Below, piece after piece: positions 4,127-39,336 of a stretch of DNA of 61,537 nucleotides. Below the pieces are notes generated by a model that ran no database searches, was not told the origin of the DNA, and was given only the letters and a program-made list of their open reading frames with translations. The DNA comes from Paludibacteraceae bacterium (lineage in GTDB: Bacteria; Bacteroidota; Bacteroidia; Bacteroidales; Paludibacteraceae): contig JAKSKU010000013.1 of the NCBI GenBank assembly GCA_024401565.1, positions 1 through 61,537 on the forward strand, written 5' to 3'. The translations under genes were made by a program, and so were the position numbers. How positions within the stretch are numbered: position 1 is the stretch's first letter; each line of letters starts with the position of its first letter.

Positions 4127-4161
4127 TTAACTTTTAACTCTTAATTTTTAAATAGTAATTT
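4127..4161. repeat. Short degenerate heptamer array (TTAACTT)
   Basis: Five 7-bp steps: TTAACTT, TTAACTC, TTAATTT, TTAAATA, GTAATTT. Short and low in complexity, so support is moderate; it abuts the partial MITE copy at 4164. Confidence 0.5.
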
Positions 4162-4163
4162 AA

Positions 4164-4250
4164 TACGCTCGCCCTATCGGGCTCGCGTGTGGAGTAGTTA
4201 GGGCGTTCCGCCCTTAACAATCCTCATTTGGGACGACTGCTATAATCTCC
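4164..4250. mobile_element. MITE-like element, copy C (left end lost)
   Basis: The internal CGCTCGCCC...GGGCTCGCG hairpin, the GGGCGTTCCGCCC hairpin and the right end (reverse complement begins GGAGATTATAGCAG) match copies A and B. The left terminal repeat is missing. No protein is encoded. Confidence 0.75.
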
Positions 4251-5436: not shown

Positions 5437-5440
5437 TTTT

Positions 5441-5965
5441 TATGTTTTCTATGTTTTCTATGTGAGCCCCTACCACGGCGTAGCCGCTATTTTTACGTTT
5501 TATTTCACACGTTAAATTTTTTTGTCTCACATAGAAATCATAAAAATCATAGAAATTTTATTTCGTGTAATAGTTTTATATGTTTTCTATGTGAGCCCCA
5601 ATTTCGGCGTAGCCGTTACTTTTACGGTTTATTTCACACGTGAAATTTATTTTTTGTCTCACATAGAAATCATAAAAATCATAGAAATTTTATTTCGTGC
5701 AATAGTTTTTATGTTTTATATGTTTTCTATGTGAGCCCCAATTTCGGCGTAGCCGTTACTTTTACGATTTATTTCACACGTGAAATTTATTTTTTGTCTC
5801 ACATAGAAATCATAAAAATCATAGAAATTTTATTTTGTGCAATATTTTTTATGTTTTCTATGTTTTCTATGTGAGTCCCTACCACGGCGTAGCCGTTATT
5901 TATGTTTTCTATGTGAGCCCCTACCACGGCGTAGCCGCTATTTTTATCTTTTCTATGTGAGACCC
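5441..5965. repeat. Complex array of CTATGTGAG / CGGCGTAGCCG repeats with inverted copies
   Basis: The CGGCGTAGCCG core appears at 5476, 5605, 5745, 5885 and 5928, each preceded by TTTTCTATGTGAG. Three inverted partners (GTCTCACATAGAAATC) start at 5524, 5656 and 5796, spaced 132 and 140 bp, so CTCACATAGAAA and TTTTCTATGTGAG can pair across about 55 nt. The array fills most of the 670-nt spacer before the helicase gene. No credible ORF lies in it. Confidence 0.88.
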
Positions 5966-5990
5966 AAAATCCCAATACGCATTTTTTTTG

Positions 5991-9813: not shown

Positions 9814-9895
9814 GGAGATCTTGTAATAATGAGGATTGTTAAGGGCGGAACGCCCTAACCGCCCTTCCAATAGCGAGCCCGTAAGGGCGAGCGTT
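9814..9895. mobile_element. MITE-like element, copy D (partial)
   Basis: Starts with GGAGAT, continues ATGAGGATTG and the hairpin GGGCGGAACGCCC, then GAGCCCGTAAGGGCGAGCG. The outer repeat is degraded and the far end is missing. It directly follows the DUF1016 pseudogene. Confidence 0.65.
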
Positions 9896-9986
9896 AAATT
9901 AAAAACACAGAGACACGGAGTTCTCAGAGATTTTCTCCTGTTTTGTTCAGTTGGATATTTTCCATCTGCATTAAATACGAAAATTT

Positions 9987-14003: not shown

Positions 14004-14756
14004 TTATAAAACTATAATCCATATTGTTTTGCTGACGATATGAGCCAACATGTGAGCTAACATCGCATACTGTATACCGTATTTGCGGTAGAGCCTTCCG
14101 AATACGATGCCGAAAATACCGTTTAGCAGAAAACATCTAAATATAAGCATGCCTGTCAGATTGCCAAATGTTTGAATGGTTGCTGGCAGATGTCCTGCAG
14201 CAAATGCTGTGGCGGCAATGATATTTGATATGATAAGCACTTTCTCTGGAACGACATCCTCTTTTTTATTAAATAGCTTCCAACCGATGAATGCAAGAAG
14301 GCTCATAAGGAAAAGTCGCATCATGACTTCTTCGATTATGCCACCGTAAAGAATTGATGCAATCCAAGTCGGAGCATCAAAGACATTGGACGCTTCGTAC
14401 GAGCCTTCAAGTTCTGGAATCCATCTTGCGAAGGCATCAGCACTAAGGATAATACCGCTTATAGCTCCTGCAAGTAGGGTAATGATTGATTCTTTCTTTG
14501 TAAACTGGAAAGGACGGATTAAATTGAGCTTGTTTGCAATGATATAGCCGAAAAATCCGCAGACTGCAGCATATATAACAGCTTGGAGCGTCATGATTAG
14601 GAAGAGCATTTGCTTACTTCCTATCTGTTGTATAGCAATATCTAAAGTCTCTTCGTCTAAGCTATCAACAGCAAACACTGCGGTAAACCAACCTCCGATT
14701 ATTGCAATTGGTATCAGACATAATGTGAAAATCAACGGTTTCTTAAAATTCGTCAT
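14004..14756 (-). CDS. CPBP-family intramembrane metalloprotease
   Basis: A 250-aa polytopic membrane protein. The three CPBP (ABI/CAAX-protease) motifs are visible: EEVMMR at 142-147, H189 in FAAGH and HMLAH at 235-239. About seven to eight hydrophobic segments are seen. In bacteria such proteins may cleave membrane substrates or protect against self-made bacteriocins; no bacteriocin gene is next to it. The start is set at MTNFKK: a longer frame beginning MRIVK exists, but its first codons lie within a MITE fragment (14757-14797). Confidence 0.85.
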   Translation of the reverse strand: MTNFKKPLIFTLCLIPIAIIGGWFTAVFAVDSLDEETLDIAIQQIGSKQMLFLIMTLQAVIYAAVCGFFGYIIANKLNLIRPFQFTKKESIITLLAGAISGIILSADAFARWIPELEGSYEASNVFDAPTWIASILYGGIIEEVMMRLFLMSLLAFIGWKLFNKKEDVVPEKVLIISNIIAATAFAAGHLPATIQTFGNLTGMLIFRCFLLNGIFGIVFGRLYRKYGIQYAMLAHMLAHIVSKTIWIIVL

Positions 14757-14797
14757 CTTAACAATCCTCATTTTTTAACAACTGCTATACAATCTCC
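14757..14797. mobile_element. MITE-like element, copy E (right end only)
   Basis: About 41 bp match the right end of the family: CTTAACAATCCTCATT, then AACTGCTATACAATCTCC. It sits directly upstream of the protease start codon. Confidence 0.65.
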
Positions 14798-15028: not shown

Positions 15029-15289
15029 ATTTTTTGACACTTTTTTTTAGTTTTGATGCTATTTTTTTTGAAAAACTGCGAAAGTTTAGGGAAAATCCTC
15101 TTGAAACGGACGTTTTTTGCCAGGAAATCAACGTCGTTAAAGCGATAATGAAATGTAGTAGGTGAAGATTTGTATTTCACATTATATACATTATTATCGC
15201 CTAAGGAAAATTTTTCTATTTGAAGAGCTTTGGGTTCTCCTTTGATTATTATGAACGTTCGCGGTGTTGTCATTGTAGAAAAAATTAAT

Positions 15290-15420
15290 GGCAATTATAT
15301 ACGAGTTGTCCAACACACGCTTTTCCTTTATACGCTCGGCCTACGGCCTCGCGTTGGGGGAGGGGCAAGGGCGTTCCGCCCTTTGCAATCCTCATTTTGG
15401 ACAACTGCTATATAATCTCC
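15290..15420. mobile_element. MITE-like element, copy A (complete, with 8-bp target duplication)
   Basis: 131 bp. The left end begins GGCAATTATATA-cg-AGTTGTCCAA. The right end, reverse-complemented, begins GGAGATTATATA-gc-AGTTGTCCAA. Identical 8-mers AAATTAAT flank it at 15282-15289 and 15421-15428. Inside are two GC-rich hairpins (CTCGGCCTACGGCCTCG and GGGCGTTCCGCCC). No ORF is present. In the 567-nt spacer between tRNA-Cys and the deacetylase, only this element and the tRNA promoter are recognisable. Confidence 0.85.
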
Positions 15421-15505
15421 AAATTAATACTATTATCTTTGTAATCCTAGTCATTCACAAATATGTCATTGACATCTCTATTTGCAAAATCTTACTCTCC
15501 AACCC

Positions 15506-23683: not shown

Positions 23684-23756
23684 TTGTTAAGGACGGAATG
23701 TCCTAGCCTTAACCTCCAACGCGAGTGTATAAAATTAATGTGTTTGGACAACTGTT
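23684..23756. mobile_element. MITE-like element, copy F (degraded)
   Basis: TTGTTAAGGACGGAATGTCCTAG matches the inner hairpin of the family with several changes, followed by CCAACGCGAG and TGTTTGGACAAC. Both outer ends are lost or decayed. Confidence 0.55.
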
Positions 23757-35640: not shown

Positions 35641-35671
35641 TTGTGATTCTTTCTGAAAAAGTATAATTTTG
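35641..35671 (+). promoter_or_regulatory. Promoter of the B12 operon
   Basis: TTG at 35641-35643, a 20-nt spacer, TAATTTTG at 35664-35671. Transcription would begin near 35678, at the 5' edge of the riboswitch. Confidence 0.65.
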
Positions 35672-35679
35672 CGCCCAGA

Positions 35680-35846
35680 TTTGGTAACATGACAATTGCG
35701 TCATGCTCAAGGGAATCAGGTGTAAGACCTGAGCTGTTCCTGCAGCTGTGACCCCCGTAGAAAGGGAGGCGACAAAAAATGTCACTGACACAACGGTGTT
35801 GGGAAGACGTCGACTCTGGGGAAGCCAGAATACCTGCCACGTCTAA
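35680..35846 (+). promoter_or_regulatory. Cobalamin riboswitch
   Basis: The conserved blocks of the cobalamin riboswitch appear in order: GGGAATCAGGTGTAAGACC, a GCTGTTCCTGCAGCTGTG segment, CCCCCGTAG, the GTCACTG core, GGTGTTGGGAAGACG, and the closing GAAGCCAGAATACCTGCC near 35821-35838. It ends about 40 nt before the first receptor start. Binding of adenosylcobalamin should switch the whole locus off, probably by blocking translation initiation, as no terminator follows. It controls both uptake and synthesis genes downstream. Confidence 0.95.
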
Positions 35847-35886
35847 TTAAGTGATAACAAACTCCCAGGATAGGGGTCATCTACTT

Positions 35887-39193: not shown

Positions 39194-39336
39194 GGAGATT
39201 ATATAGTAGTTGTCCCAAATGAGGATTGTTAAGGGCCCATGTTTGATTATTTGGCCCTAATCCCTCCATCAAACGCGAGTCTGTAGGACGAGCGTATGAA
39301 AAATAAGCGTGTTTGGACAAATCGTATATAATTGCC
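39194..39336. mobile_element. MITE-like element, copy B (complete, inside the B12 locus)
   Basis: 143 bp, in opposite orientation to copy A. It starts GGAGATTATATAG-tAGTTGTCC and ends with the reverse complement of GGCAATTATATACGA-TTTGTCC. Inner ATGAGGATTG and CTCGTCC-like hairpin blocks are kept. No flanking duplication is seen (left AAAAAAAG, right ATTTAAGA). It is inserted between cbiK and btuF. Confidence 0.85.

Follow-up and report, generated by a model that had tools for sequence, protein, structure and literature searches.

Mobile insertion cassettes carry a passenger gene between IS ends and have no transposase, and REP and BIME repeats are dispersed hairpins with compensatory changes. 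The BrickBuilt repeats of P. gingivalis (PMC4596501) and MITECca01 of Cardinium (PMC9769881) are described as short, repeated, bounded by terminal inverted repeats (TIRs) and lacking a transposase; the TIRs of BrickBuilt are similar to ISPg1, ISPg9 and ISPg4, its duplications are variable, and MITECca01 is derived from an IS982 element. Duplications of 8 bp are usual in the IS1595 family, GG ends are found in the related Merlin elements (PMC8101967), and ISApl4 is reported to prefer A/T-rich 8-bp repeats (PMC12561309).

The family described here was found in a 61,537-nucleotide stretch of a Paludibacteraceae genome (the window). It is like BrickBuilt and MITECca01 in general form but has IS1595-type ends and 8-bp duplications. 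With ISXO2-like IS1595 elements it has in common an A+T-rich 8-bp duplication and GG ends, although the candidate partner elements encode a zinc ribbon and a DDE transposase whereas the window copies encode nothing, and the ends resemble those of relatives at the family level and in viral records rather than those of any nameable IS. Elements with small genes, IS1595-type ends, an 8-bp duplication and no transposase (L082, L163, L166 and L140) are like mobile insertion cassettes, of which known cases include plasmid-borne quinolone-resistance ones, whereas those described here were found in the genome of a gut Bacteroidales and among IMG/VR records. The dispersed core hairpins with compensatory changes are like REP and BIME repeats, but the core is about 75 bp, holds two different hairpins and is absent from 12 Y1 loci. 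We consider it highly probable that an IS1595-family (ISXO2-like) transposase acting in trans moves these MITEs and inserts them at A+T-rich 8-bp targets.

Copies, target duplications and element-free sites

Copy A (15290–15420, + strand) is a complete MITE of 131 bp. Its imperfect TIRs of 22 bp or more, GGCAATTATATACGAGTTGTCC at 15290–15311 (+) and, inverted, GGAGATTATATAGCAGTTGTCC at 15399–15420 (−), are defined by the end pattern and end alignment, and it is flanked on both sides by AAATTAAT (15282–15289 and 15421–15428, no strand), which the duplication statistics below identify as target duplications. Between the TIRs lies an inner hairpin core (15325–15399, +) with hairpin 1, ACGCTCGGCCTACGGCCTCGCGT, at 15332–15354 (+) and hairpin 2, AAGGGCGTTCCGCCCTT, at 15367–15383 (+), both seen by folding and by covariation analysis. 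Copy B (39194–39336, −) is a complete MITE of 143 bp with the same architecture and hairpin 2 in a long form; its flanks match at 3 of 8 positions, so it has no clear duplication. Folded as single-stranded RNA, copy A reaches −57.5 kcal/mol (z −6.4), with the TIR pair as outer stem, and copy B −43.8 kcal/mol (z −4.6). The TIR core ATTATATANNAGTTGTCC has 5 sites in the window at up to 3 mismatches, a number that none of 100 shuffles reaches (mean 0.66).

The earlier note had placed both whole copies, with the ends and flanking 8-mers of copy A, exactly where we find them. It had also listed four partial copies, and all four match the family model: a MITE that lacks the left end and keeps the right (model positions 37–130; 4159–4249, +), a right-end remnant (positions 92–131; 14757–14797, +), a fragment (positions 15–99; 23684–23753, −) and a repeat at 9825–9905 (−; positions 32–110). 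The last has the hairpin core and neither TIR, fits a TIR-less core repeat better, and is probably a separate family sharing the inner hairpins of the MITE. Two hairpins had been ascribed to every copy, which is so except that 14757–14797 has neither and 23684–23753 lacks hairpin 1. The statement that all copies lie between genes can be judged against mechanically called ORFs, and fails for 14757–14797, which overlaps the start of the ORF at 14004–14771; copy A is itself overlapped by two unproven ORFs of that list.

The window has other features besides the MITEs. Tandem repeats of 78 and about 140 bp, at 1597–2062 and 5437–5970, have a common module like TATGTTTTCTATGTGAGCCCC in both orientations, a telomere-like 14-bp tandem repeat, AACCCCTAACCTCT, stands at the window start (1–75), and a cobalamin riboswitch is found at 35665–35855 (84.6 bits).

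The genome of the window (G000) is a 2.18 Mb assembly, 78% complete, of the same genus as G005 and G006. Searched with copy A, it gave at least 40 matches (40 of 135 candidates scored), and among these are three other copies 97–98% identical to copy A. The end pattern at up to 2 mismatches finds 66 + 53 = 119 sites, compared with 1 + 0 for the reversed pattern. Full-ended copies measure about 126–146 bp, within the 50–1000 bp of a TIR-bounded MITE, and are too short to encode a transposase; with 119 end sites against 1 in the control this is the high copy number without a transposase that is characteristic of MITEs. A longer end pattern gives 24 + 22 sites in the sister genome G005 (0 + 0 reversed) and 1 to 8 sites in each of seven other genus members. 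Across the bacterial family end sites occur in 17 of 358 genomes, and 11 of these have no more than two; L107 and L108 have a single site each, in both cases within an ORF, which we ascribed to chance. An exact cassette-type end pattern, which misses most MITE ends, matched only G000, at one site, among 393 Bacteroidales genomes. A blastn search of the named phage and plasmid collections with copy A gave no match at E ≤ 1e-5. A MITE closely resembling the G000 copies was also seen in another genus (L109 of G335, 2491–2626) at a contig end, and may be a recent transfer or a mis-binned contig.

The nucleotide search of genome and relatives with copy A, which the earlier note had proposed, finds copies with defined ends and flanking duplications. 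In the sampled loci we distinguish 56 copies, of which 35 retain both ends. Exact 8-bp duplications flank 8 of the 35, compared with 0.06 expected from flank swapping, and 13 match at 7 or more of 8 positions (0.5 expected from 1190 swapped pairs). Over all 35 copies the 8-bp flanks match exactly in 8, at 7 positions in 5, at 6 in 8 and at 4 or fewer in 14; copy ends were set by model position in these counts, and a nearby indel masks a duplication (L011, otherwise 8/8, is scored 6). At other lengths exact matches number two at 7 bp (0.06 expected), three at 4 bp (1.35) and two at 3 bp (3.06), with none at 5, 6 or 9–12 bp. The duplications are located exactly at the TIRs, as target site duplications of a MITE, here of 8 bp, should be, and those matching at 7 or more of 8 are 93% A+T, compared with 69% in the next 12 bp and 58% in the window.

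Copies are also missing from corresponding sites in relatives. Copy A is absent from its site in sister G005, where the flanks are continuous with small differences and the single target copy is not letter-for-letter identical. The DNA of G005 at the copy B locus is 98% identical over 2456 bp, and there copy B is present. In G003, G004, G007 and G008, however, copy B is absent (an alignment gap of 31 bp versus 159), with flanking genes 77–82% identical (74% over a short piece in G008) and so too distant for an exact empty target. Because of the 8-bp duplications together with the copies missing from relatives' sites, we conclude that these repeats are a MITE family that has moved recently.

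It is conceivable, if somewhat doubtful, that the family moved formerly and has no partner now, its copies being fossils on which the hairpins persist. Within the 78% complete assembly of G000 we find no IS1595 transposase by PF12762 (0 matches) or at E ≤ 1e-20 (0), which is what such a history would leave, as are the 14 of 35 copies with flanks matching at 4 or fewer positions and the several fragmentary copies. The three copies 97–98% identical to copy A argue for more recent movement, as does the absence of copy A from the sister G005, given 98% DNA identity between the two genomes at another locus.

Ends similar to those of IS1595 elements

The earlier note had suggested that the element is non-autonomous and depends for its movement on a transposase gene located elsewhere, and the duplications, the unfilled sites and the autonomous elements with similar ends that we describe here lend support to this. 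These elements come from two kinds of search. L160 and L165 were found in IMG/VR by the end pattern GGNANNTATATACNTGTTGTCC, so that their end similarity was selected and the gene inside was not; L246, L278 and, in IMG/VR, L177, L175, L173 and L179 were found by transposase protein, with their ends unselected. Records are called viral here by IMG/VR membership alone.

L160 (2484 bp, CATTTTAT) and L165 (2200 bp, TTATTATC) each have an 8/8 duplication and an IS1595 transposase, and their ends are identical to the MITE ends at 16–18 of 22 positions. Among the elements found by protein, L246, from a genome of the same bacterial family (G360), is 2454 bp long (ATTATTTT) with an 8/8 duplication; each of its two ends agrees with the left end of the MITE in 18 of 22 bases, and its transposase of 335 aa is 53% identical to that of L165. 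The ends of L177 match the MITE left and right ends at 18 and 16 of 22 (0 and 0.00015 of 20000 shuffles), those of L175 at 15 and 14, L173 at 15 and 13 and L179 at 14 and 12. L278 is an IS1595 element with an 8/8 duplication, and its left end and the right end of L246 have their first 12 bases, GGCAATTATATA, in common with copy A. Fifteen hand-chosen ends align gap-free as GG..A.TATA.A....TTG.CC.

The assignment of the partner elements to IS1595 is based on their proteins and duplications. The DDE_Tnp_IS1595 domain (PF12762) scores over the cut-off in L160, L165 and L061, and L246 is placed by its 53% identity to L165; the NCBIfam IS1595 model NF033547 matches L160 and L165, and NCBIfam IS1595 also matches L084. 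The N-terminal zinc ribbon of all IS1595 groups except IS1016 (PF12760) is over the cut-off in L160, L165 and L061, and 8-bp duplications are present. As GG or G ends were imposed by the element searches, a GG end is no test of membership. The window copies, at about 130–145 bp, have no such transposase and are derivatives at most.

Similar ends are not a property of all IS1595 elements. Of the 11 viral loci that encode a relative of the L165 transposase, seven have paired ends with duplications of 7/8 or better (among the seven, L171 and L180 are L165 and L160 again, and L177 and L178 carry one element); of the remainder, L174 has a duplication of 4/8, and L172, L176 and L181 have no end pair. 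A relative at E ≤ 1e-20 is found in 45 of 358 genomes of the bacterial family, and among the 30 loci read (L246–L275) two, L246 and L249, have paired ends with an 8/8 duplication. L249 is the same element as L061 (G030, AAAATTAA), whose ends match those of the MITE at 10 and 9 of 22, no better than shuffles. At several of the 30 the ends differ altogether in type (GGTATAGGCG...), so that MITE-like ends cannot be predicted from membership of the IS1595 family in general. The L165 transposase has 3 matches to phage records at 35–41% identity.

The earlier note had named ISL3 and IS256 among families with such duplications and GG ends, and had proposed looking for a full-length insertion sequence with the same ends. 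ISL3, IS256, IS6 and IS1 types have 8-bp duplications and a preference for GG ends, and one of these could move the MITEs with the IS1595 likeness being convergence. We consider this improbable: the absence of an IS1595 transposase among the finds in G000 is in keeping with it, but the ends are similar, gap-free over 22 bp, to those of IS1595 elements found by protein (L246 and L177), and the transposases inside similar-ended elements were IS1595. The ISL3 and IS256 reading was set aside as the end similarity led to IS1595, the families being set apart here by their ends. Neither the end sites listed first nor the IS1595 transposase searches of G000 reveal an autonomous parent with the same ends, and no autonomous element that we examined has ends identical to those of the MITE; an autonomous parent is not required by the MITE definition given in PMC4596501.

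L084, in G005, is the only IS1595 transposase found in the genus. It is 31% identical to L246 and has a long branch in a tree of 12 rows, which, with only L061 entering from 11 host loci tried, informs little beyond that branch. We rejected it as the MITE partner, as it has no TIR pair and no long enclosing inverted repeat and its transposase is distant. A MITE-like remnant about 160 bp upstream of it was taken as chance.

Judged by the sequence of the ends, the length of the duplication and the composition of the targets, IS1595 is the best-supported partner type, on evidence that is good but indirect, and we infer that a transposase of this type moved the G000 copies. In the proposed mechanism an IS1595-family DDE transposase encoded elsewhere would bind both MITE ends and move the non-autonomous element of about 130–145 bp in trans, and insertion into an A+T-rich 8-bp target would duplicate that target. 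The source of the transposase may be the missing 22% or so of the assembly, a copy since lost, or a phage or some other element that has invaded.

The inner hairpin core

The core corresponding to 15325–15399 is also dispersed without MITE TIRs in sister genomes, with many such copies among the matches listed for G001–G004, G007 and G008. At 14 TIR-less core loci we read 20 matches, 19 of them within model positions 29–125; the sole exception, L233 (positions 9–130), is a diverged fuller element. The MITE is not the only carrier of the GC-rich hairpins, and it may have captured the core repeat or been its source.

In 28 chosen cores the two stems are paired in 96.6% of cells, compared with 87.9% in shuffles (0 of 500 as high), and changes on both sides are seen in 42 cells, compared with 12.6 (0/500); one stem pair is found as AU, CG, GC and UA. 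The number of pairs changed on both sides (5 versus 3.8 shuffled, 111/500) and of further pair types (12 versus 12.4) is not above shuffles. Stem pairs were placed by eye on the tested alignment, which favours structure in all of these figures. The form of hairpin 2 differs between copy B of G000 and its G005 counterpart, which suggests exchange between copies.

That a Y1 (RAYT-like) transposase spread these repeats as REP-like hairpins, with the TIRs incidental, is very unlikely for the TIR-bounded copies. In its favour are the TIR-less cores with covarying stems and the Y1 transposase matches in 9 of 9 genus genomes searched (37 matches). Against it, the duplications sit exactly at the TIRs, and the core repeat was found (E ≤ 0.01) at none of the 12 Y1 loci examined among those 37 matches. 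These 12 loci give no Y1/RAYT link for the core itself; the TIR-less core may still have such an origin.

Cassettes without a transposase

Returning to the IS1595-type ends, similar ends with duplications also bound transposase-free elements in a sister species and in viral records. A first scan gives a pair with a duplication of 7/8 or better at 5 of 25 loci (L082, L092, L122, L129 and L140) and a second at 6 of 13 (L158, L160, L163, L165, L166 and L169), two of which bear a transposase. In the sister genome G006, L082 is 1169 bp with two small genes and TAAATTTA as an 8/8 duplication, and L092 is a 130-bp MITE, also 8/8. L140 (IMG/VR) is 476 bp with a GNAT gene, L166 is 1279 bp with two genes, L163 is 516 bp and L169 is 253 bp, all 8/8; L158 (390 bp) and L129 (492 bp, from a sheep reticulum Bacteroidales) are 7/8, and L122 (254–256 bp) has an ambiguous duplication in poly-T. 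Other scanned loci have single ends, or pairs with no convincing duplication (L083, L093, L103, L106, L094, L096 and L098). L082, L163, L166 and L140 have the passenger, the IS ends, the duplication and the lack of a transposase that make a mobile insertion cassette.

One element carries tnpB. L155 (492–1847; G745:C1:50291–51646), which lies in a 393-kb record, spans 1356 bp and has IS1595-type ends and an 8-bp duplication, TTCTTTTA on both sides, and tnpB, its only large gene (NF040570, 321 bits), ends 12 bp from the TIR. Such cassettes do not form a class among 15 viral loci with tnpB relatives, of which only the query element has ends and duplication; L299 has an end pair of similar type (21/22) and no duplication. 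At L141 a TIR stands, by eye, beside tnpB-like and recombinase-like genes, its other end not being found.

Related passengers occur with and without a transposase in viral records and in a host genome: the 155-aa passenger of L278 has 42% identity (1e-43) with an L090 ORF in G006 that lies beside TIR-like ends, without a pair, and the GNAT of L140 is 62% identical to a GNAT beside a TIR in the 393-kb record. For most passengers Pfam and PHROGs give nothing firm. An N-terminal motif, as in MKRTIRLNESELKRMIAESVRRVLKE, matched by a regular expression that was written after the first cases were seen, is present in 6 of 19 listed elements, on one ORF or more of each, on 10 of 432 ORFs counted outside elements and on 0 of 126 ORFs in the window. 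Those 10 include L178 and L180, which copy listed elements, and one ORF counted twice (L165 and L171); as outside ORFs carry it, the motif is also on other genes of those records.

Some observations by the way concern the same loci. The passengers of L082, L160, L163, L166, L177 and L174 have an N-terminal motif like IRLTESDLHRIVKESVNRVL. At L090 and L091 (G006) a short frame like MLLGKVQSVVRQNDVELSA recurs, by eye, upstream of TIR-adjacent genes and looks like a conserved leader peptide. At L086 (G005:C73) a GNAT gene and a small upstream ORF are enclosed by two copies of a MITE end in direct orientation, both with left flank AAATATATTA, an arrangement that looks like a duplicated segment.

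We tentatively suggest that the window MITEs might be the empty end of a shared cassette system, in which phage or host IS1595-type transposases would move small cassettes in trans, carrying one or two genes (GNAT enzymes, RLTESDLHRIVKESV-motif proteins, even a lone tnpB) between very large phages and gut Bacteroidales genomes. A literature search by titles and the beginnings of abstracts found no such cassette system, and a search outside subscription papers found no published combination of jumbo phage and IS1595.

The MITE family itself is of an ordinary kind, and the surrounding cassette system is more novel. A high-copy repeat that lacked annotation, in a gut bacterium not yet cultured, is now tied to a likely transposase family, and with exact ends, target length and element-free sites given, its mobility is testable. 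The core poses a separate question, namely why the stems persist while their sequence changes. The similar-ended cassettes point to a way in which small genes, that of an RNA-guided nuclease among them, may move without a transposase of their own.
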